Of a stretch of 64,000 bases of DNA, positions 10,272-48,723 are shown piece after piece (the first letter of the stretch is position 1; each line of letters begins with the position of its first letter). Made by a program: the position numbers and the translations under genes. Source of the DNA: Gardnerella coleohominis (lineage in GTDB: Bacteria; Actinomycetota; Actinomycetes; Actinomycetales; Bifidobacteriaceae); contig NZ_MNLH01000001.1 of assembly GCF_002896555.1 (NCBI RefSeq), positions 372,001 to 436,000 on the forward strand. Direction: 5' to 3'. The notes under the pieces are model-generated. The model was not told where the DNA came from, did not search any database, and worked only from the letters and a program-made list of their open reading frames with translations.

Positions 10272-10334
10272 TTTAGTCTTATAAACACATAATGTTCACG
10301 GCATGATATACAAAAGGAATGTATAAAAGAATAT

Positions 10335-10462
10335 TTGTTTCAGGGAAGGTGAAAATCCTTACTGGCGGTAGCAAGATAATCTTGAAGCCCGCGAGCGGAG
10401 TAAAATCTGCAGATTCGGTCAAATTCCGAAGCCAACGGTCAAAGTCCGGATGGAAGAAACGG
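10335..10462 (+). promoter_or_regulatory. FMN riboswitch (RFN element)
   Basis: Contains the conserved RFN blocks in order: AGGGAAGGTGAAAATCC, CTGGCGGTAGC, GAAGCCCGCGAGC, and GCCAACGGTCAAAGTCCGGATGG, ending at GAAGAAAC. The 3' end lies against the GGAGG ribosome-binding site of ribU (10461-10465), so FMN binding most likely blocks translation start. This is a direct match to the known consensus of FMN aptamers. Confidence 0.96.
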
Positions 10463-10471
10463 AGGCCCACC

Positions 10472-16135: not shown

Positions 16136-16879
16136 ATGAGGAAGTTTTGGCAGTGGAAAAACCAAAAGGAAAACAATGAGACTAATGAGAATAATGAGAT
16201 TTTTGAGAGGACACTGTTTCTTAACGGTACGATTGCTGAAGAATCATGGTTTGATGATGATATTACACCACAACTTTTTAAAGACGAGTTAAACGCTGGT
16301 AGTGGAAATATTACCGTGTGGATTAACTCACCTGGCGGCGATTGTGTGGCTGCGGCACAAATCTATAACATGCTCATGGATTACAAGGGTTGTGTGACGG
16401 TCAAGATTGATGGGATTGCAGCTTCGGCTGCATCAGTGATTGCTATGGCTGGGACAAAGGTTTATATGAGCCCGGTGTCAATGCTTATGATTCATAATCC
16501 TATGACTGTTGCTTTTGGAAACAGAAGCGAAATGGAAAAAGCAATATCAATGCTTGATGAGGTCAAAGAGTCCATTATTAACGCTTACGAGATTAAAACA
16601 GGGCTTAACCGTGTGAAACTCTCGCATTTAATGGATTCGGAAACGTGGATGGATGCTAACAAGGCGGTAGAACTCGGGTTCGCGGACGGTGTTTTAACTA
16701 GAGGTGAAACCACTGATATTGGCATACCACAAGTTTCAACATTGTATTCAAAATTAAGCGTGCAAAACACGTTATTGGAAAAAATATCTAAAGCCTGCCG
16801 GATAAGCGGTAAGGAAACAAACAATATTAGTGCAGACGATCTTATGGATCGTCTTTTTTTAATCAAAAATTGGAGGTAA
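16136..16879 (+). CDS. ClpP-type prohead protease
   Basis: Capsid maturation protease of 247 residues, ClpP/S49 fold. INSPGGDCVAAAQIYNML marks the oxyanion-loop strand, the nucleophile Ser lies in IAASAASVIAM near residue 97, and the catalytic His in MLMIHNPM near 120; Asp is likely in the region around 170. It cleaves scaffold from the capsid precursor during head assembly. AGGAGG precedes ATG 16136. Its stop lies three bases before the capsid start, so the two are translationally linked. Confidence 0.92.
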   Translation: MRKFWQWKNQKENNETNENNEIFERTLFLNGTIAEESWFDDDITPQLFKDELNAGSGNITVWINSPGGDCVAAAQIYNMLMDYKGCVTVKIDGIAASAASVIAMAGTKVYMSPVSMLMIHNPMTVAFGNRSEMEKAISMLDEVKESIINAYEIKTGLNRVKLSHLMDSETWMDANKAVELGFADGVLTRGETTDIGIPQVSTLYSKLSVQNTLLEKISKACRISGKETNNISADDLMDRLFLIKNWR

Positions 16880-30610: not shown

Positions 30611-32206
30611 GTGAAAGAGATAATAAAAATAGACTCTACAATGCGAAAAACTGGTTTTGAGAAAAAGACGCGGGTTGCAGCGTATGCGAGAGTTTCTAGT
30701 GATAGTGATGAGCAGCTTCTCAGTCTAGAAGTGCAAAAGGAGCATTACGAAAACTATATTAAGTCTAATCCCTGCTGGGAGTATGCGGGGCTTTACTTTG
30801 ACGAGGGTATTAGCGGCACGAAAATCGGTAAGCGTGAAAGTCTTAAACAACTGCTTAAAGACTGTCAGAGCGGTCAGATAGACAGGATTATTACAAAGTC
30901 TATTAGTAGGCTTGCAAGAAACACGGTTGACTGTCTTGAAATAGTTAGAAAACTTACCGGTCTCGGTATTTATTTGTATTTTGAGAAAGAAAACATTGAT
31001 ACCGAGCATATGAGTTCAGAGCTTATGCTTTCTATCCTGAGTTCTATTGCGCAAAGCGAGTCAAAATCCATCTCGGAAAACAACACGTGGGCAATTCAAA
31101 AACGGTTCGAAAACGGAACCTTCGTCATTTCCTGCCCTGCGTATGGGTATAAAAACGAGAATAAGAAAATGATTATAGTTCCCGAGCAAGCCAGGGTAGT
31201 AAAAGAAATTTTCAACATGGCTCTTTCCGGCATGGGTGGAGAAGCAATAGCACGAGTATTGACCGATAAAAAGATTCCAACTAAAAAGGGCGGAAGTTGG
31301 ACTTCAAGTACCGTGAATGCTATTTTGACTAATAAAACATACACAGGGGATGTGATTTTTCAAAAGACATTTACAGACGATAATTTTAACCGTCATAAAA
31401 ACTGTGGCGAGAAACAACAGTATGTTATTGAAAACCATCACGAGGCTATCATCAGTCATGAAACTTTTAATCTTGTAAAAGAGATTATCGCGTGGAGAAG
31501 AAGTGAAAATAATATAGTATGTGGTAGTGGTAAGTACAATAAGCTTTATGCGTTTTCAGGTAAAATTCGTTGTGGTGAGTGTGGAAGCAAGTGTAAAAGA
31601 CGAATAATTTATCAACATAATAAGGCGTATGGCATATGGGTTTGTATAACGCATCTTGAAGATATTCATGCTTGTTCACAAAAGTCTGTTATGGAAAGTT
31701 ATCTTAAAATTTCCTTCCTGCAAATGTTAAACAAGTTAAAAGCAGGATACGTTCAAATGTTGACTCCTCTCGTAGAAAGTTTGAGAGGTGTGAATAATAA
31801 AGACGGTTTGAACAAGGTTATCGAACTCGAAGAAAAAATAGCTAAATTGCAAGAACAAGAGCAAGTACTCAGTAAGCTTTTAGCCGGTGGCTATATTGAG
31901 ATGGATTCCTACTATCTGGAAAGCAATCAGCTTAAAACGGAAATGGATACTTGTCTTAAGGAAAAACTTAAGCTTTCCAACAGTTTAAACGGTAACTTAA
32001 CGCACTTAAACGAGGTGCAAAAACTTCAACGGTTCGTAAGTGTCACAGAAGTATTTAGCGAGTTTAAGGATGAGGATTTTCTGGATTTTGTAGACGATGT
32101 CGTAGTTAAAAGCAGAACAAGATTTCTTTTTATTTTGAAATGTGGATTGGAATTAGAAGAAGAGGTGAAAGAAACATGGCACGCATCCCATATGGTTACA
32201 GAATAG
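30611..32206 (+). CDS. Large serine recombinase 1
   Basis: 531 residues: resolvase catalytic domain (VAAYARVSSDSDEQ; nucleophile Ser near residue 25), Recombinase domain (GYKNENKKMIIVPEQARVV, IARVLTDKKIPTKKG, ILTNKTYTGDV), zinc ribbon (IRCGECGSKCKRR) and C-terminal coiled coil (VIELEEKIAKLQEQEQVL). GTG start after AGGGG. Such enzymes integrate and excise phage or ICE DNA. Its 3' end overlaps the accessory recombinase gene by 31 bases. Confidence 0.93.
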   Translation: MKEIIKIDSTMRKTGFEKKTRVAAYARVSSDSDEQLLSLEVQKEHYENYIKSNPCWEYAGLYFDEGISGTKIGKRESLKQLLKDCQSGQIDRIITKSISRLARNTVDCLEIVRKLTGLGIYLYFEKENIDTEHMSSELMLSILSSIAQSESKSISENNTWAIQKRFENGTFVISCPAYGYKNENKKMIIVPEQARVVKEIFNMALSGMGGEAIARVLTDKKIPTKKGGSWTSSTVNAILTNKTYTGDVIFQKTFTDDNFNRHKNCGEKQQYVIENHHEAIISHETFNLVKEIIAWRRSENNIVCGSGKYNKLYAFSGKIRCGECGSKCKRRIIYQHNKAYGIWVCITHLEDIHACSQKSVMESYLKISFLQMLNKLKAGYVQMLTPLVESLRGVNNKDGLNKVIELEEKIAKLQEQEQVLSKLLAGGYIEMDSYYLESNQLKTEMDTCLKEKLKLSNSLNGNLTHLNEVQKLQRFVSVTEVFSEFKDEDFLDFVDDVVVKSRTRFLFILKCGLELEEEVKETWHASHMVTE

Positions 32207-32586
32207 TAGACGGTAAAGCGGTTATAGATGAAGTAAAAGCTCAAGAAGTAAGAGAGTTTTTTTGTTTCTATCTTGAATTTAAAAATATTTCTCAAGCTGC
32301 TAAAAAATCAGGTATAAAAAGGGATTGGCCAGTCACGGGCAAAATTCTTAGCAAGAAATTGTATTTAGGAACAGAGTTTTATCCTCAGATTATCGATGAG
32401 GATATGTTTAGACAAGTGCAACAAATAAGGCATGAGAATGCTATCAGGAATCATCGTTATAAAGAGCCTAAGCCAATAAAGGAAATTCGGCTTATTACAA
32501 GCTACCAGTTAGAAAAGGTAGAAAAGAAATATGATGATCCTTATCGTCAAGCAGTATACGCGTACAGTCAAATCAAGGAGGTGTAA
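32176..32586 (+). CDS. Recombinase-domain-only accessory protein
   Basis: 136 residues matching only the DNA-binding Recombinase domain ([43 protein letters not shown]), with no resolvase catalytic domain or nucleophile serine. ATG 32176 follows AGAGGTG; the preceding frame is the recombinase 1 end. Probably an accessory subunit of the tandem recombinases. Confidence 0.75.
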
Positions 32587-32587
32587 A

Positions 32588-34165
32588 ATGAATGCCAACG
32601 TTACAATTATTCCACCAAGAAAAATAGCGGGGAATACGGTAGATAAGCATGAAGATAAGCCGAGGTTAAGAGTAGTAGCGTATTGTCGTGTTAGTACTGA
32701 CAGTGAAGAACAGGCAACAAGTTATGACACGCAAGTTCAGCATTATACGGATTATATTTCAAGAAATCCTCTCTGGGAGTTTGCCGGCATCTACGCTGAT
32801 GACGGTATTTCAGGAACTAGCACGAAAAAACGTGTCGGTTTCAATGACATGATCCACGATTGCATGAGTGGCAAAGTAGACATGGTTATCACTAAGTCGA
32901 TTAGCCGTTTTGCGAGAAACACTATCGACTGTTTAAAGTTTGTTAGACAGTTGAAAGACAAAAACATTCCGATCATTTTTGAAAAAGAAAACATCAACAC
33001 CATGGAAGCAAGCGGAGAACTATTGCTTACTATCATGGCTTCTTTAGCTCAACAGGAATCCGCGTCGCTTTCTCAGAATGTGAAGCTTGGACTTAAGTTT
33101 CGCTACCAGGAAGGCAAAGTGCAAATCAACCATAACTGGTTTTTAGGATACACAAAAGATGATGAGGGGAATCTTGTAATTCTTGAACAGGAAGCAAAAG
33201 TCGTAAGAAGGATTTATAGAGAATATTTAGAAGGAGCAAGTCTTAGAGACATAGCGGAGGGCCTTGAAAAAGACGGCATTAAAAACGGTGCCGGGCATTT
33301 AAAATGGAATTTATCTAATATTAAAGGCATCTTGCAAAACGAAAAATATATTGGTGATGCACTTTTACAAAAAACCATCACGACAGATTTTATCAACCAT
33401 GTTCGTATAAAAAATGATGGAACAGAACCACAGTATTATGTCAAAGATAGCCACACGCCTATTATTCCAAGAGATATTTTCTTTAAAGTTCAAGAAGAAA
33501 TGGTAAGACGAGCCAACATGTTTAGCGGTGAGGAGAACAAAAAAAGAAGAGTCTATTCCAGCAAGTACGCTTTATCCAGCCTATGTGTTTGTTCTAAATG
33601 CGGGGATATTTACAGAAGAATTGCTTGGAACAATCGAGGAGTGCATTCTGTTGTCTGGCGTTGTTGCACCAGAGTGGAAAACGGTCCTAGTGCTTGCGAT
33701 GCTCCGACAGTAAAAGAGAACGAACTGCAATCTGCCATAGTGAAAGCCATAAACAAGGTGTTTAGTATACCGGATGAAGTATTGGATACGTTGAATAACA
33801 ATATTAGAGAAATTATCGCGGGCAACAACTTAAGCGAGATTGAAACGGTTGATAAAAAAATCGCAGACAAACAAGCGACACTACTAACCTTGCTTAAAGC
33901 TAAAAAAGACTACACGAAAATAGCTGATGAGATTGATGAGCTTAAAGGTAAGAAACAGCAGCTTCTTATAGAAAAAGCAGGTCAAGAAGATGCTAAAAGA
34001 CGAATCAGAGAAATGGAAGATTTTCTGAAAAATGAGCGTCACGATATTAGTGAATATGACGAGAAGCTGGTAAGAAAGTACATCAAGAAAATAAAAGTTT
34101 ACGAGGACAAGTTCAGCATAACTTTTAAATCAGAGATTAGTGTGGATATTGAAAGGGCATCGTAA
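32588..34165 (+). CDS. Large serine recombinase 2
   Basis: 525 residues, same architecture as recombinase 1: [21 protein letters not shown] with nucleophile Ser near residue 33, Recombinase domain, zinc ribbon ([10 protein letters not shown] ... CC ... C) and long C-terminal coiled coil ([18 protein letters not shown]). AAGGAGGTG just before ATG 32588. A divergent copy of the last ~78 codons recurs at 36086-36321. The prophage is bounded here on the right. Confidence 0.93.
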
Positions 34166-34205
34166 AAGCCAAAAGAATGTGAGCATTTGAAATGTTACAA
34201 AACTC

Positions 34206-34240
34206 AGCCTAGGGGGAATCCTCTCTAGGCTGTTTTTGTT
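34206..34240 (+). terminator. Terminator after recombinases
   Basis: AGCCTAG (34206-34212) pairs with CTAGGCT (34225-34231), then GTTTTTGTTTTT. The same hairpin recurs at 36362-36390 and 42095-42125, always upstream of the accessory-module repeat. Confidence 0.85.
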
Positions 34241-34264
34241 TTTATGCTAAAATCAAGTTATTAA

Positions 34265-34374
34265 GCCAATCTTAAACCTTTTAACGATAGCTTTTTCTAT
34301 CGTTAAAAAGTGCACCCACTATCAATAGTGTGCACTCAAAAAAGTGTAGCTATACTACCTGTTCTCTCAATCCA
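34265..34374 (+). repeat. Hairpin repeat, copy A
   Basis: First of five ~105-110-bp repeats. Hairpin 1: TTTTAACGATAG / CTATCGTTAAAA, 12-bp perfect arms, loop CTTTTT. Hairpin 2: AGTGCAC..ACTAT / ATAGT GTGCACT. Then AGTGTAGCTATACT, a third short dyad, and a right edge TTCTCTCAATCC. Copies B-E differ mainly in loops. Confidence 0.92.
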
Positions 34375-34458
34375 AGTCGAGACTGTGGCGTTGTTGACAA
34401 GAGAATAAAATTAAACAAAATCAAATGGATCAAAAGAATAGAAAAGAGGAAAATTATA

Positions 34459-34956
34459 GTGGAAAAAGTTATGGAGCATAATTGCGGATTTATTAACGAT
34501 AAAAAAGCATTTAGATATAGAGCAGCAGCCATCATAGTAGAAGAAGGTTGTGTGCTATTTGCAGGAAATGATGAGGACGACTATTACTACTCAGTTGGCG
34601 GAGCGGTTCACATGGGTGAGACATCAGAAGAAGCCGTAAAGAGAGAAGTATTTGAAGAGACAGGTCTTAATTACGAGGTCGATCACCTTGCCGTCATACA
34701 CGAGAACTTATTCATCGGTAGCTCTAGCTTAGATGGAGTAGACTTCCATGAGATTACACTCTACTACATGATGAAGTCCCTGGGCAAAAAAGATTTTACG
34801 AGCCATAGTACTACAGAGTCAGGTGCTAAAGAGACAATGCATTGGTTACCTATAGATGAGCTTGATAAGTGCAAGGCTTACCCTACATTTATGAAAGAAT
34901 ATCTTAAATCGGAGCATAGTGGAATAGAGCATATAATTTCAGATGAAAGATATTAA
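34459..34956 (+). CDS. Nudix hydrolase
   Basis: 165 residues with a Nudix box GX5EX7REVXEETGL (GAVHMGETSEEAVKREVFEE) near residue 48; the last part contains LPIDELDK. Hydrolyses nucleoside-diphosphate derivatives; substrate unknown. A longer frame runs upstream into the repeat, but GTG 34459 follows GAGGA and is a better start (ATG 34471 also possible). First gene of the accessory module, between the repeated 440-bp blocks. Confidence 0.88.
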   Translation: MEKVMEHNCGFINDKKAFRYRAAAIIVEEGCVLFAGNDEDDYYYSVGGAVHMGETSEEAVKREVFEETGLNYEVDHLAVIHENLFIGSSSLDGVDFHEITLYYMMKSLGKKDFTSHSTTESGAKETMHWLPIDELDKCKAYPTFMKEYLKSEHSGIEHIISDERY

Positions 34957-35007
34957 TGAATCCCACTATTATGGCAAGAGATCGTTACATAAACATTATT
35001 TCTGTTT

Positions 35008-35315
35008 ATGTTCGGACAGAACAATCAGTCGAAAACATTAGCCAGGATACCATTAGAGCAGTTCGAAGATGTACTCTCTTACATAGATTATGAAAACATA
35101 GATCATGATACAATTACGCTTATCGGAGTCTCGAAAGGCACAGAATACGCGTTGATGTCGTAGCAATGATCATTGAATTCGGTGGAGAGGGAGAAGAAAA
35201 TCAGAAGTCTAAAGCGGAGTCTCAAACCTTGATACTTGAAACACTTATGTTTTGGATTGATTACCGTAGTCCCTTTACACTGCCACGACGTGGAATATCA
35301 GATTGTGTAAATTAG
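35008..35315 (+). pseudogene. Alpha/beta hydrolase (BAAT-like) remnant
   Basis: ATG 35008 opens 51 codons that include ENIDHDTITLIGVSKGTEYAL, a GxSxG nucleophile elbow like acyl-CoA thioesterase/BAAT C-terminal domains, ending at TAG 35163. A second short frame 35166-35315 follows (IIEFGGEGEENQK). Both are far too short for a functional enzyme (about 300+ residues expected). I read this as a decayed gene. Confidence 0.55.
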
Positions 35316-35333
35316 CATTTGAAGGAGAAATCA

Positions 35334-35921
35334 ATGAGCTTAGATGAATTGAGGAATGATATCATCATAAAGCAGAAAAAAGGATTGCCATTTATCATGG
35401 CATCGGTGATTATATGGCTTCTGATAGTACTTGTGTCAGTTTTAGATATCAATATGGATATGAAAAATTTATTGGTATTTTGCTGTTCATGCCCATTATT
35501 ACCGCTTGCTTGGCTCATTGGTAAACTTATAAAGGTGGATATCTTTTCAAAACAAAATCCACTTGGACAATTAGGCTTCATTTTCACCTTAAATCAAATG
35601 ATTTATTTATTAATCGTTATGTGGGTGTTTAGTGCGGTTCCGGGAAAGATGATTATGGTATACGCTATGGTGTTTGGAGCACATTTACTGCCGTATTCAT
35701 GGTTGTATCAATCAAAGGGATACACAGTTGCTGCAATTTCCATTCCGATGATTTCCTTGATTTTAGGATGTGCATTAAACGGGACAACGGTTGCTGTTGC
35801 GGCATGTATTATTGAGATAGTATTTGTTTGTGTATTACATATGGAATTAAAGAAAATGGGAGATAACTACAACAAATCCCAGTTTGTAGAGCTTAGCAAG
35901 GATCAAGTTTCTATGAAATAG
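35334..35921 (+). CDS. DUF7010-family membrane protein
   Basis: 195 residues with about six transmembrane segments (FIMASVIIWLLIVLVSVL; CSCPLLPLAWLIGKL; FTLNQMIYLLIVMWVF; others), as in a Firmicutes DUF7010 family. Function unknown. ATG 35334 follows AAGGAG. Second gene of the Nudix module. Confidence 0.75.
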   Translation: MSLDELRNDIIIKQKKGLPFIMASVIIWLLIVLVSVLDINMDMKNLLVFCCSCPLLPLAWLIGKLIKVDIFSKQNPLGQLGFIFTLNQMIYLLIVMWVFSAVPGKMIMVYAMVFGAHLLPYSWLYQSKGYTVAAISIPMISLILGCALNGTTVAVAACIIEIVFVCVLHMELKKMGDNYNKSQFVELSKDQVSMK

Positions 35922-36085
35922 AAATCTAAATCTAAATACGTTATGTGTAAATAATGGCGGTAGTAATACCGTCTTTTTTGATGCCTAAAAAGGTTTCAGA
36001 GTTTCAAGGCTAAAGTTTCAGAGTTCAAAGCTAAGGTTTCATTGTATCCAACACGTAATGAAACTATATACGAAAACTGTCAACG

Positions 36086-36321
36086 AGATTGATGAGCTTA
36101 AAGTTAAGAAACAGCAGCTTCTTATAGAAAAAGCAGGTCAAGAAGATGCTAAAATACGAATCAGAGAAATGGAAGATTTTCTGAAAAGTGAACGTCACGA
36201 TATTAGTGAGTATGACGAGAAGCTAGTAAGAAAGTACATCAAGAAAATAAAAGTTTACGAGGACAAGTTCAGCGTAACTTTTAAATCAGAGATTAGTGTG
36301 GATATTGAAAGGGCATCGTAA
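36086..36321 (+). pseudogene. Duplicated 3' end of recombinase 2
   Basis: The frame from about 36086 repeats the recombinase C-terminus ([17 protein letters not shown] ... SVDIERAS). Sequence before 36086 is unrelated, so the catalytic part is absent. It is the right copy of the 440-bp repeat, followed by terminator-like hairpin and copy B. Confidence 0.9.
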
Positions 36322-36419
36322 AAGCCAAAAGAATGTGAGCGTTTGAAATGTTACAAAAGTCAGCCTAGGGGTAATCCTCTCTAGGTTGTTTTTTTTATGC
36401 TTAATAATTAAGCTATTAA

Positions 36420-36528
36420 GCCAATCTTAAACCTTTTAACGATAGCTTTTCCTATCGTTAAAAAGTGCACCCAATATCCATAGTGTGCACTCAAAAAAGT
36501 GTAGCTATACTAGGAGTTCTCTCAATCC
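36420..36528 (+). repeat. Hairpin repeat, copy B
   Basis: Same two-hairpin sequence as copy A, hairpin 1 loop CTTTTC. Its right edge (CTCAATCC at 36521-36528) joins directly to a truncated gene. Confidence 0.92.
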
Positions 36529-37027
36529 GCATGGGCACGGAAACTTGAATCTGAAAACATTCAAGCCATTTGCAAAGAATCCGCCGATAGCAAAAGTGTT
36601 CCGTGAGATCGGTCTTGCTGACGAACTGGGAAGCGGTATGCGCAACAGCTATAAATACACGAAGATGTATTCTGGTGGAGAGCCTGTCTTTACAGAGGCA
36701 GATGTTTTTACGACAGTGATTCCTCTTTCTGAGGCGGCAACTGCCAAGGTCGGGCCGATTACCCAAGGTACCCCACAAGTCGTCCCTCAAGATACCCATC
36801 AAGTCACCCCCCAAGATCTGGAACAAAGGTTATTGAGATTAATTGATTTTTGCAGTACACCGCGAAGTAAGCGTGAGATGATGGATTACCTTGGCCTTAC
36901 GGATAGCAAGAATTTCAGAGAAAGGTATCTTGTTCCTTTGCTTAGTGCAGGAAAAATAGAAATGACGATACCAGATAAGCCAAACAGCAGGAACCAGAAA
37001 TATAAAAAAGTGAACATTGAAGATTAA
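36524..37027 (+). pseudogene. AlbA_2/ATP-binding protein, 5'-truncated
   Basis: The product begins HGHGNLNLKTFKPFAKNPPI and VFREIGLADELGSGMRN, the C-terminal end of AlbA_2 (Schlafen-like) putative DNA-binding ATP-dependent proteins normally 400-500 residues. Only the last ~165 residues remain, including a winged-helix part (MMDYLGLTDSKNFRERY). Truncated exactly at the edge of copy B, which supplies an artificial start. Non-functional as a full enzyme, though the fragment may be expressed. Confidence 0.7.
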
Positions 37028-37485
37028 AAAGCGACCATTGGAGACAGAAACCATATATCGAATAGAGGAAAACGGACATTCAATGTATAGTTTTGGTTTC
37101 ACGAATAGGTATGTCGAGACGATGGGATTTCGTACTTATTTCCTCAGAGCGAGTCTTGAAACGAACGTCAAATCTACGGATTTGCATATCATAGGTAGTA
37201 GCATGTCCTTTGAACTTTTCCGAGAACGTATAATGGCAAAAATCGGTGTGTTTCCGAGCAAAAACATGCTTTGACCAATTCCAGCGAACGAGCACGAATC
37301 TGTCTACACACTCGACACCAAGATGAAGCAGTCGTGCCAAATCGAAGCGTTGATTCAATACATTGACTTGCGGATGGCGGATTCGACGATCTCCTGGCAT
37401 ATGGATGGCGATGGCACGTAAAAGAGTATTGCATATTTTTTCATAGAAGCATACCATAAGAGCAAGGTGTTTTACTATTGTAAAG
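37028..37485. other. Intergenic, no credible gene
   Basis: 458 bp. Short frames on both strands (for example 37080-37457 reverse) give compositions unlike real proteins here. I see no tRNA, repeat or terminator. Possibly decayed DNA next to the truncated gene. Confidence 0.4.
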
Positions 37486-38895
37486 ATGCATAGTATGCCT
37501 TCTTATAGAGAAAGAAATATTGTGAAAAATATAATAAGCACAACTGGGAATAAAACTCATAGAGTAGTAGTCTGGATTTTCGGGGTCATAGGTATAATTG
37601 CTGTAATTGCAGCCGTTACTATAGGTCTCTTTCATTGGGCTTTATCGACAGAATATACAATATCTGCTCATTCGGAGAAATTTGAAAATCTTCGGTTGCA
37701 GCATGCGGTTGTTGCAATCCCGCTGCATAACCCTCAGACATCTCTTGTTCCCAATGGCAGCGCATTTATGTCAATTGTTTATGAAGATGGCAGTTTTAAG
37801 CTGCATACGGTGAGCAATATAGAAGGCCAAACGCCAATTTGGAATACTGAGGCGCTTCACTATACAGATTCCCATGATAGTTATTTCATACCAGTGAACG
37901 CTAAAAAACCTACAGTAAACTCTATAGAAAAGGTGCAACGTCAGAATTTTGCATTTTCTCTTGCTAATGGCGGTTTTGTTGATCTGTATGACGAAAGCAT
38001 GATGAAGCATAGAGGTAAAACAACATATAAGATTCTTTCTACGACTTCTAAAGGTGAGAGTAAGCAGCAAACAATACGATTTTCAGAGAGCCTATTTATT
38101 AAAACTTGTTCTACCTGTGGCAATCAAGCGTATGCAATTGCTCAAACAGACAAGCATGAAGTTGTATTGTATCGCATGGTCAATGAAGCAAATGTTGGCC
38201 TAAATGAGGTATCGCGGCACCATGAAAAAGACATGGTGGGTGAGCAATTATACCAAGGAGAAAATGAATCTACAGGAGTAATTGATGCTGCTTATAGCCC
38301 ACGATGCAACAATGGTGTGATTACTTTCTTATATTCGTATGGTCCATCGTCTGCTCGCACAAAGGATATGGCAGTAGAACACAGCGATTCTGCTGATGAT
38401 GTTAAAGCTATTCAGGAACATTTTCTTGTGCGATGGGATGTGAAAACTGGTAAAATAACAACAATTCCATTGAAGAACAGCAAAGGTCAAGTGTTGTATG
38501 GTCCGACCACAGTCTCTTATGAGATTGCTGGCTACATAAACGCACAGGCATACGATGAAAAGCTTCTTCATATTGTTGATACCGAGAATGGACGAGTGTT
38601 TACTCTTGATACGCAAACAGGTGTTCTTCGCCGATTGTTAGATAAAGCTACGCGTCAAGAGTCGTCAGCTGGCGTCAACTATCGTTTGCTGGTAGGAAAC
38701 CATGAAATAGTTCGTATACCATCGATTATCGATACCTCTGATTTGAAAGATTTCGTTATCGAACGATTTGATAGGAAGACTGGAAAATTATTGAAAAAAA
38801 TAAAAGTTAATAAAGATTTTCTCTATTTGACAGCTCAGAAAAATACGAGTTTATATCCGGGAATTCCAGCTGTGAATCCAAAATGGTTGCAATGA
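37486..38895 (+). CDS. Membrane-anchored extracytoplasmic protein, unknown
   Basis: 469 residues. One transmembrane helix near residues 27-53 (VVVWIFGVIGIIAVIAAVTIGLF), the rest outside. The exterior part has repeating Asp/Thr/Gly strand motifs (WDVKTGKITTIPLKN, VDTENGRVFTLDTQTG, FDRKTGKLLKKI) like blades of a beta-propeller, but no named family. Start ATG 37486 has no clear ribosome site; ATG 37495 is the next. No partner genes; it shares a repeat-bounded module with the truncated AlbA_2 gene. Confidence 0.65.
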   Translation: MHSMPSYRERNIVKNIISTTGNKTHRVVVWIFGVIGIIAVIAAVTIGLFHWALSTEYTISAHSEKFENLRLQHAVVAIPLHNPQTSLVPNGSAFMSIVYEDGSFKLHTVSNIEGQTPIWNTEALHYTDSHDSYFIPVNAKKPTVNSIEKVQRQNFAFSLANGGFVDLYDESMMKHRGKTTYKILSTTSKGESKQQTIRFSESLFIKTCSTCGNQAYAIAQTDKHEVVLYRMVNEANVGLNEVSRHHEKDMVGEQLYQGENESTGVIDAAYSPRCNNGVITFLYSYGPSSARTKDMAVEHSDSADDVKAIQEHFLVRWDVKTGKITTIPLKNSKGQVLYGPTTVSYEIAGYINAQAYDEKLLHIVDTENGRVFTLDTQTGVLRRLLDKATRQESSAGVNYRLLVGNHEIVRIPSIIDTSDLKDFVIERFDRKTGKLLKKIKVNKDFLYLTAQKNTSLYPGIPAVNPKWLQ

Positions 38896-38994
38896 TCGGC
38901 AATTGACGTATTGGGCTTGATGCTTGTGAATGATTTTGCAGTGTCAAGCCCGATTTATTCTGTCGTGCGTGTAGGGGAAACTAAGGGTAATCGG

Positions 38995-39291
38995 CCCAAA
39001 AGTGTGTCTATTAGTCGGCGTGTAGTTAGCGTATTGCGCTCATCTTTCGCGTAATCATCTATGAATTTGTCAATAGGACACCGTTTGCCAAGTACTGTTA
39101 GGATTCGATAATAGCTGCTATTACGACATTTCTTTCTCACTATTTATATCTACTAACTAGGCAGTTACCGCATACACCACAAACATGATTATTGCAAGAC
39201 CTGTTCTGCATACATGCTTTTTAAGCATGTACTACACCTAACACGCCTCAAATAAGAATAAAAACCAGAAATTCTGTACACACTTTTTGGG
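38995..39291. mobile_element. Candidate small IR-flanked element (MITE-like)
   Basis: CCCAAA-AGTGTGT at 38995-39007 and ACACACTTTTTGGG at 39278-39291 are inverted repeats (one gap) flanking about 300 bp; ends resemble IS256-like termini. Inside is only a 61-residue reverse frame (38955-39140) with no recognised domain, and a TACATGCTT/AAGCATGTA hairpin at 39211-39231. No target duplication seen. Confidence 0.35.
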
Positions 39292-39300
39292 AATTAACCC

Positions 39301-39395
39301 TAATCTAAACTTTTTAACGATAGCCTTTCCTATCGTTAAAAAGTGCACCCAGTATTCATAGTGTGCACTCAAAAAAGTGTAGATACATTACCCGT
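39301..39395 (+). repeat. Hairpin repeat, copy C
   Basis: Same hairpins 1 and 2 as copies A and B, loop CCTTTC; the right part (GATACATTACCCG) diverges from the others. It lies 24 bp from the relE stop, at the 3' side of the TA pair. Confidence 0.88.
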
Positions 39396-39418
39396 ACTTT
39401 TCTAGCACAAATCGCGTA

Positions 39419-39751
39419 TTAATTGTTTGGGTCGTTAGCAATATTTTCTATATTTCTGCCTGAGTAGAATATGCGAATAACTGTTACATTCATTTGGTTT
39501 TTGTCTACTTGGTAGAAAACAGTGTAGTTGTCGACTGGAACTCTTCGTATTTCCATAGATAACCACGGCTCCCACTCAACAAGCTGATATCGCATAGGCA
39601 TAGTCTCAAGAGAACGTATAGCATGCTTAATGCGGTTGACTTGTTTTTCCGCCGTTTTAGGAACTTGTAAATTAAAGCGAATGTATTCGTATAGCTCAGT
39701 GAGATCAAGGAACGCTTGCGGAGAATAAATGACGCTATAGGTTGTGCTCAT
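39419..39751 (-). CDS. RelE/ParE-family toxin
   Basis: 110 residues of the RelE/ParE superfamily: YSVIYSPQAFLDLTELYEYI at the N-terminus and the C-terminal strand TVIRIFYSGRNIENI with basic residues. RelE-type toxins cut mRNA at the ribosome or poison gyrase (ParE); fold alone does not decide. Overlaps the antitoxin stop by four bases (ATGA), which is classic for antitoxin-first pairs. Confidence 0.87.
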   Translation of the reverse strand: MSTTYSVIYSPQAFLDLTELYEYIRFNLQVPKTAEKQVNRIKHAIRSLETMPMRYQLVEWEPWLSMEIRRVPVDNYTVFYQVDKNQMNVTVIRIFYSGRNIENIANDPNN

Positions 39752-40053
39752 ACGCCGTATTCCTTAGCGAAGAATTGGTCTACTTCATCTGCACTGTATT
39801 GTTTGCCAGTTGAAATAGAGTCGATGCCTTTTTGTAATTCTTTATCCAACTCGGCTCTTGTTAAGCTGCCTAAAGCAGTAGGCTTATTAGTTGGCAAGCG
39901 AAGTTCAAATGGCATGCCTTTTTGTAAAACAATCTGGCTGTAAAGCATTTGGATTGCTGAAGATGGAGTTATTCCAAGCTGATTCAAGATACTTTCAGCG
40001 TTTTCTTTAAGATTTGTATCGATTCTTGCATATACAACGTTCGTGTTTGTCAT
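39748..40053 (-). CDS. RelB/DinJ-family antitoxin
   Basis: 101 residues with the ribbon-helix-helix N-terminus NVVYARIDTNLKENAESILNQLGITPSSAIQMLY and Pro/Leu-rich C-terminus that wraps the toxin, typical of RelB/DinJ. AAGGACGG upstream on this strand. Binds its own promoter and neutralises the RelE-like toxin. Confidence 0.87.
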   Translation of the reverse strand: MTNTNVVYARIDTNLKENAESILNQLGITPSSAIQMLYSQIVLQKGMPFELRLPTNKPTALGSLTRAELDKELQKGIDSISTGKQYSADEVDQFFAKEYGV

Positions 40054-40144
40054 TATGTTACCGTCCTTTATGCGCTTATTTTACAAAATAGTTGCAAGCA
40101 TACGCAAGCAATTGAAAGCAATATATTTATTTCAGTGAGATAAA

Positions 40145-40252
40145 CCATCTTAAACTCTTTAACGATAGCCTTTCCTATCGTTAAAAAGTGCACCCAGTAT
40201 CCATAGTGTGCACTCAAAAAAGTGTAGCTATACTAGGAGTTCTCTCAATCCA
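40145..40252 (+). repeat. Hairpin repeat, copy D
   Basis: Same hairpin structures, loop CCTTTC. Right flank to about 40316 (TACAGAATCAGTGGCGC and on) is also shared with copy E, so D and E share a longer ~170-bp block. Confidence 0.9.
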
Positions 40253-40407
40253 TACAGAATCAGTGGCGCTTCTTTACAAATCGTGACTGTTTCAAGATAT
40301 CGTTTTGATGACATGTGATGATGACAATGGTAAATGAGCATAGGCATATGCATGATTTAGTAAAAATTTGATTGATTATTTTATTTTATTTTATGCTGAG
40401 TGTTGCT

Positions 40408-40503
40408 AAATGCGTATAATTATGTGATAAAAAACACTAAAATACGTATAATAATGTGATTAAATGCACCAAAACATATATAATAATGTGATATACGATA
40501 AAA
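40408..40503. repeat. 32-bp tandem repeat x3
   Basis: Three adjacent 32-bp units start at 40408, 40440 and 40472, each with ACGTATAATAATGTGAT-like cores. They lie 118 bp upstream of the DUF4143 ATPase. The core contains TATAAT, so may form promoters or an operator array. Confidence 0.85.
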
Positions 40504-40620
40504 GATAACGCAAAATATAACAGAACAACAGTGCAACTACGCGTAGAAAAAGCAACGCGACAAAACAATAATACGGTTGCAATATTTAATAGCGTAACGT
40601 CAAGTGAAAGGTGAGTAATC

Positions 40621-41958
40621 ATGAAAAGGCTGATTATGAGCAAACTTTTAGCATGGAAGAACTCGCCGTACCGTAAACCATTGATATTAAAAGGCGTGCG
40701 TCAAGTTGGTAAAACTTGGATATTAAAAGAATTTGGTAAGCTTTACTACAAAAATATTGCTTATTTTAACTTCGACGAAAACAAAGAATATAAGCAATTC
40801 TTTGAAACCACTAAAAGCGTGGAGCGAATTTTACAAAACCTCATGCTTGCAAGTGGTCAAAAAATCGAAGCAGAAAACACGCTGATTATATTTGACGAGG
40901 TTCAGGACTGTCCAGAAGTAATAAACTCGATGAAATATTTTTGCGAAAACGCTCCGCAGTATCATGTTGCTTGTGCTGGATCATTACTTGGAATAACGCT
41001 TGCAAAACCATCTTCATTCCCAGTTGGAAAAGTTAATTTTATGCAAATAAATCCAATGACTTTCACGGAGTTTTTGCTTGCTAATGGAGATGGAAATCTA
41101 GCGAAGTATATTGAACAAATCGATAAAATAGAGCCGATTCCAGACGCATTTTTTAATCCTCTATACGAGAAATTAAAAATGTATTATGTTACAGGGGGAA
41201 TGCCTGAATCAGTTTTAATGTGGACTAAAGCGCGAGATGTAAACGCAATGCAAGAAACGTTGTTTGAGATTATAACAGCTTATGAACGAGATTTTGCTAA
41301 ACATCCTAGTGTTAGTGAGTTTCCTAAAATATCAATGATTTGGAATTCTATTCCGTCTCAACTTGCGCGTGAAAACAAAAAATTCTTGTATAAAGTTGTT
41401 AAAAATGGTGCGCGAGCAAGAGAATATGAAGATGCTTTGCAATGGCTAGTATCGGCACAATTGGTGTATAAAGTTTATAGAAATACTGCGCAGAGTTTAC
41501 CTATTGCTGCTTATGATGATGTATCTGCTTTTAAGATTTATTTGGCAGATGTTGGCTTGTTAAGGCGATTATCTCAACTTGCTCCTACTGCGTTTGCGGA
41601 AGGTAATAGGCTGTTTACTGAGTTTAAGGGTGCTTTAACAGAAAATTATGTTTTGCAAGCGCTACTTACTCAATTTGAAGTGATGCCTAGATACTGGTCT
41701 CAAACGAATCCGCCGTATGAAGTGGATTTTCTTATTCAACGAGAAAATGATATTTTCCCTATTGAGGTTAAATCTGAAGCAAATATTAATAGTAGAAGTT
41801 TGAAAAAGTTTAAAGAATTATTCCCTAATCAAACGAAATTACGCATACGATTCTCGCTGAATAATCTCAAACTAGATGATGATATGTTGAATATTCCGTT
41901 ATTTATGGCTGATTACACGGATAAGCTTATAGAACTTGCGCTGAAAGAGAATAATTAA
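40621..41958 (+). CDS. AAA ATPase with DUF4143 domain
   Basis: 445 residues. AAA/P-loop domain: Walker A LKGVRQVGKTW near residue 23, Walker B TLIIFDEVQDCPE near 87; then a winged-helix region and DUF4143 with the PD-(D/E)XK-like EVDFLIQREND ... PIEVKSEANIN near 368-390. AAAGGTGAG precedes ATG 40621. Family function is unsettled; members are frequent in accessory genomes and may act on DNA. One gene per repeat-bounded module. Confidence 0.88.
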   Translation: MKRLIMSKLLAWKNSPYRKPLILKGVRQVGKTWILKEFGKLYYKNIAYFNFDENKEYKQFFETTKSVERILQNLMLASGQKIEAENTLIIFDEVQDCPEVINSMKYFCENAPQYHVACAGSLLGITLAKPSSFPVGKVNFMQINPMTFTEFLLANGDGNLAKYIEQIDKIEPIPDAFFNPLYEKLKMYYVTGGMPESVLMWTKARDVNAMQETLFEIITAYERDFAKHPSVSEFPKISMIWNSIPSQLARENKKFLYKVVKNGARAREYEDALQWLVSAQLVYKVYRNTAQSLPIAAYDDVSAFKIYLADVGLLRRLSQLAPTAFAEGNRLFTEFKGALTENYVLQALLTQFEVMPRYWSQTNPPYEVDFLIQRENDIFPIEVKSEANINSRSLKKFKELFPNQTKLRIRFSLNNLKLDDDMLNIPLFMADYTDKLIELALKENN

Positions 41959-42148
41959 GAAAGAAAAAGAGAACGATTGAGAAAGAAAGATAATTAAGAA
42001 ATGAAGATAATTAAAAAAGTGAGCGATTAGAAGATATAGAAATAAACTAGTGCAAAAGTTAAAAGAGTGTCAATCGACGAAGCGTTACAAATCCAGCCTA
42101 GGGGGTGGGCTTCTAGGCTGATTTCATTCCCAAAAATCAAGCTATCAA

Positions 42149-42258
42149 GCCAATCTTAAACTTTTTAACGATAGCTCGCTCCTATCGTTAAAAAGTGCAC
42201 CCAGTATCAATAGTGTGCACTCAAAAAAGTGTAGCTATACTTGGAGTTCTCTCAATCC
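42149..42258 (+). repeat. Hairpin repeat, copy E
   Basis: Hairpin arms conserved; hairpin 1 loop CTCGCTC. A terminator-like AGCCTAG hairpin lies upstream (42095-42125) and the right flank to about 42318 matches copy D. 42383-42402 holds a partial inverted copy (GCTATCGTTAAAAGGTTTA). Confidence 0.9.
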
Positions 42259-42429
42259 ATACAGAATCAGTGGCGCTCCTTTACAAATCGTGACTGTTTC
42301 AAGATATCGTTTTGATGATTTTTACTGTGCTTGCAGTCTAATTGCTGCGTTTTAGGCTTTGTCTAGCAAGGCTTAGCGAGGGCTATCGTTAAAAGGTTTA
42401 GCGCATTATTGTCAGAGCAAGGCTTCCTA

Positions 42430-43713
42430 TTAGTTTTTTAAGCAGCCGATAGGAACCACATAAACACCGTCTTTACGGCAATACGCAAAGTCGCCTGTTC
42501 CAGTTAAAACCATAAGGAAAGATGGCGCGTTCATTTTATCGGTATCGATTTTATCTTTCATCGCTTTAAGGCTTTTTGCACCATCTTCAATGAGTTTGCT
42601 GCCACCGAGTTTAATTTCAATAAGACCGTATTTACCGTTTCTTAAATGAATAACCGCATCGCATTCCTGTCCGTCTTTATCTCTGTAGTGGTAAACCTCG
42701 CCGCCTAGAGAATCTGCAAAAATGCGCAAATCTCTGACGCAAAGTGTCTCAAACATAAAACCGAAAGTATTTAAGTCATTTATCAAGTCGTTTGGTCCGA
42801 TTCCCAAAGCCGCTGCAGCGATAGACGGGTCAATATAGTAACGTGTATCGGATGAACGAATAGCAGTTTTTGATCTTAGATTTGGATTCCAGGCAGGCAT
42901 ATCTTCTACAACAAATATTTTGCGAAGCGCATCAACATACGACGCAACAGTTTCCTCGCTAATTGGCGTATCTTCGTTAGTGGAAATATCCCGCGAAAGC
43001 ACTGTATTTGGTACTTGTGCTCCTTGATTTCTTGCGTATGAGCGCATAAGGCGCTTAACTTTTTCAGCATTTTTTTGTACGCCATCGGCGCGATTAATGT
43101 CGGAGTGTACAACAGCGTCATAGTAATCAAAAGCTTGATCTAAAGCAATTTCATCACGCATATCCACCGCTTGCGGCCATCCTCCACGGCATACAAGAAA
43201 AGCTAGGCTGTCAATACTTAAGTTTGAATCACCCTCAATATCCTTAGTTCCCGAAAAAAGGTTCTCCAAGCTAACTTCGCCAGTGGAATCACCGGATTCA
43301 TACAAGCTCATTGGTCTCATCGTTAGCCACGTGAAGCGCCCAGTACCAGAGTGAGTAATTTCTGTAGTATCCGCAGGAACGGCAGAACCAGTTAGTATAA
43401 ATTGACCAAGCTTACTACGATGATCCACCTCAAACCGTATTGCATCCCAAAGTTTTTGAGCGAGCTGCCATTCGTCAATTAATCTTGGAGTATCGCCATT
43501 CAGTAATCGCTTTGGACTTAGTTCCGACATAGCGATATTCTGTTCTTTCTTTTCCGGGTCGTCCATATATAGAACGCTTGCTGCAAATTGTTCTGCAGTA
43601 GTGGTTTTACCGCACCATTTCGGCCCTTCAATCAGTACTGCGCCTTTGCCTTCTAGCTTTCTTTTTAAAATATCGTCGGCAATTCTTTTCCTATATTTTT
43701 TCAACTTTGTCAC
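42430..43713 (-). CDS. AAA ATPase with DUF4143 domain, second copy
   Basis: 427 residues, a divergent DUF4143 ATPase: Walker A IEGPKWCGKTTTAEQ near residue 28, Walker B RLIDEWQLAQ near 77, EVYHYRDKDGQECDAVIHLRN and GLIEIKLGGSK for the nuclease-like C-terminal part. Start GTG 43713 is only weakly supported. Neither close in sequence to the 40621 copy nor to that at 56839. The upstream 23-bp repeat (43778-43879) is the likely control region. Confidence 0.85.
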   Translation of the reverse strand: MTKLKKYRKRIADDILKRKLEGKGAVLIEGPKWCGKTTTAEQFAASVLYMDDPEKKEQNIAMSELSPKRLLNGDTPRLIDEWQLAQKLWDAIRFEVDHRSKLGQFILTGSAVPADTTEITHSGTGRFTWLTMRPMSLYESGDSTGEVSLENLFSGTKDIEGDSNLSIDSLAFLVCRGGWPQAVDMRDEIALDQAFDYYDAVVHSDINRADGVQKNAEKVKRLMRSYARNQGAQVPNTVLSRDISTNEDTPISEETVASYVDALRKIFVVEDMPAWNPNLRSKTAIRSSDTRYYIDPSIAAAALGIGPNDLINDLNTFGFMFETLCVRDLRIFADSLGGEVYHYRDKDGQECDAVIHLRNGKYGLIEIKLGGSKLIEDGAKSLKAMKDKIDTDKMNAPSFLMVLTGTGDFAYCRKDGVYVVPIGCLKN

Positions 43714-46442: not shown

Positions 46443-46852
46443 ACACGCGCTATTATGTTGGTTCTTCTGGCTCTTTTGGCTTTGTGAATCTTGCTGTTTA
46501 TGAAAGAGTATAGTTTGCTAGTAAACGAAGAAATTAGCATTGATATAATAATTGGTAAACCTTTTGCAATAGTACATTCTTATAGTTAAAATGTGCACCC
46601 ACTTTTTTGTTTGTATATTTGGTTGTATCATGCATTTTTCTAGTAAAAGCTGTGCTTTATGGAAGAGAAAAATTTTATGGGTGTGAAAACCCTATACTAA
46701 TTGGAAAAATAAAAAATTTTTCTTTAATAAAGCTTGTATGTATGGTTTTTTTTTAATAGTAATACTATTAAAGCTAAACAGACTATTATGGATTCCAATT
46801 TTAATAGAATTGCATTCTTATTAGAATTGCATATTGGGAATAAGGAGCACGT
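46443..46852. other. AT-rich intergenic with degenerate hairpin-repeat copy
   Basis: 410 bp. 46552-46606 resembles a decayed copy of the 110-bp hairpin repeat (TAAACCTTTTGC, GTTAAAATGTGCACCCAC). TTTAATAGT/ACTATTAAA is a perfect 9-bp dyad at 46752-46772, and AGAATTGCAT occurs twice in 46800-46834. GNAT promoter probably lies here. Confidence 0.5.
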
Positions 46853-48323: not shown

Positions 48324-48723
48324 GATTTTATAAGACTGTTTTCTTCTTCTTTAAGCAAAAGGCTCTACGAGCGTCGAGAGTGTTGTGTTGATGTCAAAGG
48401 CTGATTAGGTTGGTGCAAGTTTGCTCTTGTGTAGCAAGGCTTAGTGAGGGCTATCGTTAAAAGGTTTAACGTGCGGTGGATTTAAGATTACTTCTCGAGA
48501 TTCTAGATGCAATTTTTGCTTTTTTTTTTAAACGAGAGTATAGTGTTATCAAATTTGTCAAAAAGCTATTGGATTTGTGTAGTTTGTAGTGGATTATTTA
48601 AGTTTGATAGCGATTGGCGAGTAGTTATGTAAGTTTGCGTATAAGTTTGCGTGTAAGTTTGTATGCGAGTAGTTATGTAGGCTTGCATTATTTTGAAAGA
48701 GTTTTAGGGGAGAGCTGGTAGCT
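48324..48723. other. Intergenic with partial inverted hairpin repeat
   Basis: Contains 48431-48475, nearly identical to 42361-42405 (AGCAAGGCTTAGTGAGGGC and on), including GCTATCGTTAAAAGGTTTAA, a reverse copy of the left arm of the hairpin repeat. No gene seen. Confidence 0.6.

Follow-up and report, generated by a model that had tools for sequence, protein, structure and literature searches.

The window analysed here is a stretch of 64,000 nucleotides of Gardnerella coleohominis (assembly GCF_002896555.1, contig NZ_MNLH01000001.1, positions 372,001 to 436,000), in which a prophage is followed by a series of small gene modules separated by repeats. This region has very probably grown by accretion, as an array of elements integrated site-specifically at the 3' end of rumA, a gene encoding, to judge from its sequence, a RumA/TrmA-type rRNA uracil methyltransferase (23S rRNA uracil methyltransferase). 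The host genome comprises 1.67 Mb in 47 contigs. Most sampled members of its GTDB genus have larger genomes, and the repeat is present in 7 of the 61, the window's own counted (E ≤ 0.01).

Repeats and their junction with rumA ends

Five same-strand repeats, R1 to R5, are detected in the window by exact-seed repeats and by nhmmer (122-145 bits), starting at 34260, 36415, 39294, 40141, and 42145, in agreement to within a few bases with an original prediction, made from the sequence alone, of five repeats in one orientation. Each repeat is modular and consists of a block A with a hairpin (TTTTAACGATAG..CTATCGTTAAAA) and a block B (GTGCACCC..CTCTCAATC), together about 124 bp, followed by a block C or by other sequence and often by a block D. 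The block letters (T, A, B, C, and D) and the F-numbers used below are our own labels, and blocks were mapped across the fetched loci. Module-delimiting repeats of about 105-110 bp had been proposed; the repeat stands, its length does not, and the module boundary is not the hairpin but the fixed 3' edge of B, CTCTCAATC, which lies at 34372, 36527, 40250, and 42257 and is lost in R3.

In four Gardnerella genomes a gene of 469-471 amino acids (aa) reads unbroken into C, and it does likewise in G014 and G031, G044 being masked there. This gene, classified above as rumA, matches Pfam tRNA_U5-meth_tr and TRAM, and the NCBIfam models for RlmD and rumA fit it best, yet below their cut-offs. C1 encodes the last rumA residues HVESVVLMSRA and variants, C2 encodes H(T/A)ESVA(F/L)L(C/Y)KS, and C3 encodes QVETVALLTRE, each before a stop codon, whereas all nine outgroup rumA genes from this GTDB genus have the motif THHVET followed by non-C sequence. 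Because rumA frames run into C and those of the outgroup do not, C is a 3' end of rumA and D the sequence after it. The rumA frame is open up to the stops of C1 or C2, so that the tail of an element would complete the reading frame. C and D pieces are also found many times in arrays away from rumA, and in the window rumA-like 3' ends stand at the edges of R1 (QVETVALLTRE) and of R4 and R5 (HTESVALLYKS in both).

The junction itself is fixed to the base. If a combination is defined as an arm plus its next 46 bases that keeps TTCTCTCAAT among the fetched loci, 42 of 48 distinct edge-keeping combinations show the arm passing at one and the same base into a rumA-like tail that begins with CA (CTCTCAATC followed by CA); the 48 are non-independent, many coming from close relatives. 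As a control, the same rule is passed by 106 of 12,265 CCA sites (0.9%) in 29 loci, true tails included. To the left of this core one finds rumA itself (..ACTCAT before CA), A-B, or other arms ending in ..CCTAACAATCT or ..GTTGACTCCAGG; therefore other elements share the site. These junctions point to insertion at a fixed point in the rumA 3' end, with CA as the putative crossover dinucleotide.

The same arm and other rumA tails outside Gardnerella

An exact 19-base piece of B was found in 19 stretches of a species-genome collection, 14 of which belong to records named Gardnerella or Bifidobacteriaceae, the other five coming singly from Arcanobacterium sp. S3PF19, Atopobium minutum, Mobiluncus curtisii, Coriobacteriales bacterium DNF00809, and Lachnospiraceae bacterium KA00044. 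These hosts fall into two classes of Actinomycetota and, within Bacillota, a single family. In all five of the latter genomes, a rumA-type tail follows A-B at the same base, and in four of them this tail is not of the Gardnerella type. The rumA of A. minutum ends in C1-D (96% and 93% identity) 15.6 kb before A-B on the same strand, and a different rumA tail stands behind A-B; that this rumA would carry an element tail had been predicted from the model before it was looked at, the rumA genes of the Lachnospiraceae and of Arcanobacterium being already in view by then. The Lachnospiraceae rumA likewise has a C1-D end (88% and 93%), with A-B and a different tail following after 2.7 kb, and in Arcanobacterium the C1-D end of rumA is accompanied by a 1.45-kb unit that contains a remnant of the second prophage recombinase (recombinase 2, see below). 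The Coriobacteriales genome, in which the Arcanobacterium rumA query matched no rumA, has two rumA-like genes, one with C1-D at its end and the other without a terminal C1, and matches A-B four times.

The displaced tail of M. curtisii (HVESLCLLSAQVR before its stop) is 84% identical over 45 bp to the end of the uninterrupted rumA in its relative G085 (HVESLCLLSAQSR before the stop). In the family of A. minutum, rumA was recovered from 14 of 16 genomes, with a C1 end in A. minutum and one other and the long tail of M. curtisii in one; the displaced tail of A. minutum is likely native. A different rumA tail (..HVETVALLSKLDV..) is common to M. curtisii and one Atopobiaceae genome (L161 and L193), and its sequence suggests another element family at rumA.

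At the DNA level, A. minutum is 96% identical to prophage contigs over 2.9 kb, M. curtisii 95% to G014 over 1973 bp and 95% to the DUF7010 stretch of the window over 913 bp, and the Coriobacteriales genome 97% to G031 over 554 bp. Such identities, between hosts whose rumA proteins share about 23-38% with that of Gardnerella, speak for recent transfer; some records may be misassigned contigs, yet their arms join different rumA tails each. No match to R5 plus C2 (264 bases, blastn, E 1e-5) was obtained among 72,556 plasmid records. A second pattern for viral contigs yielded 17 stretches, mostly on the same contigs; one metagenomic contig (L197) matched the pattern with no A-B upstream and was set aside, as it looks like a chance match.

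Prophage recombinases and variation behind one arm

The prophage in the window encodes, on the plus strand, the large serine recombinases 1 (531 aa, 30611-32206; Pfam Resolvase, Recombinase, and Zn_ribbon_recom) and 2 (544 aa, 32531-34165, also matched by Pfam). Between them lies a 148-aa open reading frame (ORF; 32140-32586, plus strand) with no Pfam match, the cluster of which (F28) also occurs in L054, L058, and L176; it is kept at the same place in Gardnerella prophages and in A. minutum and gives a weak CcrA match of 23 bits, far below the cut-off. Of the three serine recombinases counted originally, two are complete; the rest turns out to be this ORF and an 87-aa C-terminal remnant of recombinase 2. 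Recombinases 1 and 2 together with the 148-aa ORF may catalyze the reaction at the sites described above.

R1 directly adjoins recombinase 2, whose stop at 34165 is followed by T, a terminator-like stretch named by eye (34164-34248, plus strand), and by the phage-side arm A-B (34249-34372, plus strand). Recombinase 2 at 94% identity or more is encoded in 19 IMG/VR loci (17 IMG genome ids), T-A-B follows it in all 16 contigs reaching past the gene, and C1 comes next in 15 of them. A comparison of the genes behind the arm took in 15 of the 16 contigs (L072 was missed by the filter), two of which (L083 and L084) gave no module, and in the 13 informative prophage contigs (12 IMG genome ids) nine first genes are found behind the same arm. 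Examples are a DUF4097-type gene accompanied by a 94-aa ORF and an Lsa-type ABC-F gene, a RelB gene, and the gene of a 314-aa recombinase. A cautious count gives eight, because the F63 ORF probably lies antisense to a deaminase gene and F147 and F15 both belong to cadmium-transporter modules. The window adds a further first module, Nudix plus DUF7010. The order of modules is therefore not fixed, whereas a fixed order in all strains would, by its own terms, have refuted the original prediction. The modules may still be moving.

Phage AB1 carries a recombinase 2 that is 98% identical to that of the window; its description (PMC7996455) reports induction with mitomycin C and a circle checked by polymerase chain reaction. 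Its "complete" record MW387018 (L111:7620-7870) has two N inside A where A-B and C1 would be expected, joined directly to D, and assembly seems to have collapsed the attachment region (B and C1). The prophage of the window looks truncated at its left end when compared by eye with the AB1 gene order, capsid-side genes starting at 16136 and the sequence before about 14335 looking chromosomal. The third serine recombinase of 314 aa lies behind C1-D in some Gardnerella loci (L053:657-1601; L159:2195-3139). Streptococcus phage Javan105 has a recombinase gene of equal length near its left end.

Organization of the array in the window

All features named here are on the plus strand if not stated otherwise. 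Behind R1 comes C3 (34373-34408), the first two bases of which (34373-34374) would be the core CA, and module 1 (34330-35921) with a Nudix gene (34330-34956 as listed, the true start probably lying later than 34330) and DUF7010 (35319-35921); the 87-aa remnant of recombinase 2 (36058-36321) lies at its end. R2 (36406-36527) has a gene-internal join (CGCATGGGCACGG) in place of the rumA half, and module 2 (36485-38895) holds a truncated AlbA_2-type gene with Fic-like_C and HATPase_c_4 parts according to Pfam and a 469-aa protein (37486-38895) that looks membrane-anchored and matched no Pfam or PADLOC family. In R3 (39293-39398) the edge is degenerate and the core lost; module 3 (39419-40053, minus strand) consists of a ParE-type toxin and a RelB antitoxin by Pfam, so that of the RelB/RelE pair proposed before, RelB stands and the toxin is ParE_toxin. 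R4 (40147-40250) is followed by a partial C2 block (40251-40313) and by module 4, a DUF4143/AAA_14 ATPase (40621-41958; Pfam, and PDC-S01 in PADLOC), and R5 (42133-42257) by a C2 with a downstream part (42258-42396, ending in GCTATCGTTAAAAGG) and by module 5, a second DUF4143/AAA_14 ATPase (42430-43713, minus strand; Pfam and PADLOC). Whereas the repeats had been thought to span a region ending at 42318, and indeed lie there, the array goes on through an A2-type partial arm (46556-46603) to about 48469, where a C1 with a downstream part and without A-B (48372-48469) forms its right end before a conserved transporter-like gene.

Two units, R1-R2 (C3 to A-B) and R4-R5 (C2 to A-B), keep both attL and attR and have lost the recombinase, as cis-mobilizable elements (CIMEs) do; the R2-R3 and R3-R4 units have lost one attachment half. 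No tRNA that could serve as target lies in the window. Its sole Rfam match at gathering score is a flavin mononucleotide (FMN) riboswitch at 10332-10465.

A model of accretion and its weak points

The proposed element would circulate as a circle with the attachment site attP arranged as A-B, core, and C-D, in which A-B is the arm behind recombinase 2 and C-D a surrogate rumA 3' end with its downstream sequence. Integration at the bacterial site attB (rumA, core, and host end) would generate attL, rumA joined to C-D, and attR, A-B joined to the displaced host tail; the element tail would complete rumA, and the host tail would come to lie behind A-B. Later elements would dock at such sites, so that units pile up separated by hybrids of A-B and a tail, and because of this docking they would all have one orientation. 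The modules of the window are CIME-like in having no complete recombinase of their own; they could move only if an enzyme acted in trans, and the tandem serine recombinases of the rumA prophage are the most likely candidates.

Several observations weigh against this account. Neither an excised circle nor the reaction has been seen. A complete recombinase 2 is present in three of the seven array-bearing Gardnerella genomes (G000, G031, and G044), C-terminal remnants in three (G009, G022, and G046), and none at threshold in G014, while A. minutum has it in two pieces. Six of the 48 combinations fail the junction rule, namely the gene-internal join of R2, two joins to other sequence (L023 and L026), a tail with CG for CA (RVESVVLMSKAD before the stop), a one-base insertion, and a degenerate copy, and the edge is lost in 7 of 49 distinct copies, R3 included, that lie outside this count. 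In the window, R2 and R3 have no rumA tail. Among the other hosts, the third core base of the Lachnospiraceae unit is T on both sides, and a donor tail starting with CAT is therefore needed; the tail behind A-B in Arcanobacterium is of the Gardnerella type, so no displaced native end is seen there; the displaced tail of A. minutum was not found among the 14 rumA genes of its family; and the rumA of M. curtisii ends not in C1 but in a different, long tail, so that its island is composite.

Alternative explanations

Copies of A-B could also be passive blocks of homology between which modules are shuffled by homologous recombination, the rumA tails being carried along. The repeats are long and near-identical, the flanks have probably been rearranged on a large scale between species, and a few hybrids join pieces of A, C, and D at a shared GTTAAAA motif, also present at the ends of C and D. 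By a rough classifier, 37 occurrences of this motif are assigned to A/B, 46 to C/C, 28 to D/D, three to A/C, five to A/D, and one to C/D, with 90 more unclassified on one side, and by eye about six of the nine A/C, A/D, and C/D cases are true hybrids, which look like deletions through short homology. A motif CTATCGTTAAAA(A/G)G is common to the ends of A, C, and D in many loci, and rare hybrids switch there. Shuffling at the repeats, as raised in the original prediction, thus exists, but with few hybrids it looks minor. Homologous recombination cannot set an arm exactly into the rumA of another class or phylum: the joins occur at one base with unrelated sequence to the right, and the rumA proteins of the other hosts are about 23-38% identical to that of Gardnerella. 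We therefore regard homology alone as an improbable cause of the array.

The small units in one orientation and the perfect 12-bp stem in most copies of A also recall integron cassettes, in which single-stranded folded sites are recombined by a tyrosine recombinase. Such a role of the hairpin would go with a structure conserved above its sequence, as originally proposed, and this does not hold: among 49 distinct copies, none of the 12 inner pairs has changed on both sides in a compensatory way, and where AA is replaced by TG in the left arm (six copies), one pair is broken and one G-T pair made. The outermost, 13th position is an unpaired C-A in 26 copies and pairs in 20 (T-A in 10, T-G in seven, C-G in three). 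Of the stem arms described as constant, the left one of R4 is one base off. The hairpin is a conserved part of the arm, and the exchange point is found some 60-65 bp further downstream. As anticipated, the genome yields no integron integrase above cut-off; the model TIGR02249 matches three regions, all far below the 265-bit cut-off (best 75.7), as it does in 14 of 14 control genomes. What remains of the cassette analogy is the layout and the bounding by recombination sites, whose core, however, lies inside rumA and not in a folded hairpin, and an integron mechanism proper is very unlikely.

Hardly more credible is that the hairpin is a Xer/dif-like site and the units are Xer cassettes resembling pdif modules. 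Some A2 variants have, by eye, two 11-bp arms around 6 bp, and halves are sometimes re-paired there, but clear re-pairing is rare according to the rough classifier, and a search with a dif-like pattern gave one match with at most three mismatches, CGATAATGTACGTTATGTCAA at C1:351509, elsewhere in the genome and unlike A. This single site (G000:C1:351509-351529) lies about 20 kb before the window start, so that the array would be near the replication terminus.

Ends derived from an insertion sequence (IS) or a miniature inverted-repeat transposable element (MITE), or repeated terminators, deserve scarcely any credence and found no support, even though, in "empty" A-B-C sites, the start of A is related to the inverted end of C at a distance of about 213 bp: the MITE interpretation of this interval was rejected because C-D consists of the rumA end and the sequence behind it, no transposase family was matched by any of the 13 window module proteins scanned (small ORFs lying outside the scan), and five further host genomes have the arm fused to a rumA tail at this very base.

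Cargo genes

The names of cargo genes are family matches and their functions predicted. In the window they comprise Nudix, DUF7010, the truncated AlbA_2 type, RelB/ParE, the two DUF4143 ATPases (PADLOC PDC-S01), and a GNAT acetyltransferase, besides a Phd-like antitoxin below the Pfam cut-off and a Fic-like protein just above it. Units elsewhere in Gardnerella carry an Lsa-family ABC-F protein (802 bits, cut-off 750) and a CadD-type transporter, and the Lachnospiraceae unit an ABC-F protein of the ribosomal-protection-like type (436 bits, cut-off 380), with which a protein of the Coriobacteriales array shares its start. The three ABC-F loci are L043:1842-3371, L149:4470-5912, and L177:9348-10787, of the Lsa family in Gardnerella and of the other type in the Lachnospiraceae and Coriobacteriales. 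AbiD occurs among the cargo outside the window, a CBASS-like cyclase with a 2TM effector lies behind the Arcanobacterium site in a unit that is not delimited, and the A. minutum element (L176:1842-10436) contains Hachiman HamA and HamB and a type III methyltransferase split over two ORFs. No conjugation genes were recognized among the proteins scanned.

Relation to known systems and significance

Integron cassette arrays have the same layout of small units in one orientation that lack an enzyme of their own and are delimited by recombination sites, but here there is no integron integrase above cut-off and no folded site, and the attachment sites are of the serine-recombinase type. Staphylococcal cassette chromosome (SCC) elements of staphylococci employ large serine recombinases and accrete at the end of rlmH, a conserved gene for an rRNA methyltransferase. 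The CcrA/B/C models stay far below cut-off here (best 139 versus 900 bits), and the target is rumA, not rlmH.

Closest in target are phages of the Phi-m46.1 type, which use the same gene and the same place in it and have resistance genes in their cargo. For Phi-m46.1, insertion at the 3' end of rum, an attB of GCATCACGTGGAGTGTGT, and transduction to other species are reported (PMC4288039); this published 18-bp attB matches Gardnerella rumA at 15 of 18 bases. The recombinase of the S. suis phage phi-SsuFJNP3_rum (MN270260) is 52% identical to recombinase 2, and most of 33 S. suis prophage resistance genes are on prophages in rumA (PMC7168690). In contrast to the streptococcal rum phages, the arrays described here are dense, of small recombinase-free units with a rumA tail each, and their hosts are Gardnerella, other Actinomycetota, and a Lachnospiraceae. 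Streptococcal integrative and conjugative elements (ICEs) with a single serine integrase also insert in rumA (PMC4701971), and these ICEs and the integrative and mobilizable elements (IMEs) share with our array the serine recombinase, the rumA target, and the tail replacement; their attR lies within the integrase gene and they carry conjugation genes, whereas here a 124-bp T-A-B arm region stands behind the recombinase (PMC4701971; PMC5704250). CIME accretion is a described route to tandem islands, and in that account decayed elements keep attL and attR, lack a recombinase, and are stacked at one dock, as here (PMC5704250), although the units here often comprise one or two genes and their mobility is predicted. 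New are the dense cassette arrays in Gardnerella and the near-identical arms in two classes of Actinomycetota and a Lachnospiraceae; no description of such arrays was found in open-licence PubMed Central, the limit of the literature covered.

A wider interpretation is possible, though we consider it doubtful: phage serine recombinases might run an integron-like cassette economy across phyla, with the rumA 3' end as common dock. Units that have no recombinase would then travel in trans, with their genes for defence, toxin-antitoxin pairs, and metal or ribosome protection, among Gardnerella, Mobiluncus, Arcanobacterium, Atopobium, other Coriobacteriales, and Lachnospiraceae. Each event would swap the rumA tail, and the array would record past hosts, with host ends captured as C2, C3, and the other tails.

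The rum hotspot known from streptococci is extended here to two classes of Actinomycetota and a Lachnospiraceae. One testable rule, CTCTCAATC joined to a rumA end, would explain a strain-variable island of Gardnerella, a genus linked to bacterial vaginosis, and the 19-base tag GTGCACTCAAAAAAGTGTA may serve to trace the exchange of small cargo between unrelated bacteria in existing reads. Because genes beside the sites match families such as Hachiman, CBASS-type, AbiD, type III restriction, and Lsa-type or other ABC-F ribosome protection, the rumA site merits attention as a place through which defence and resistance may spread.

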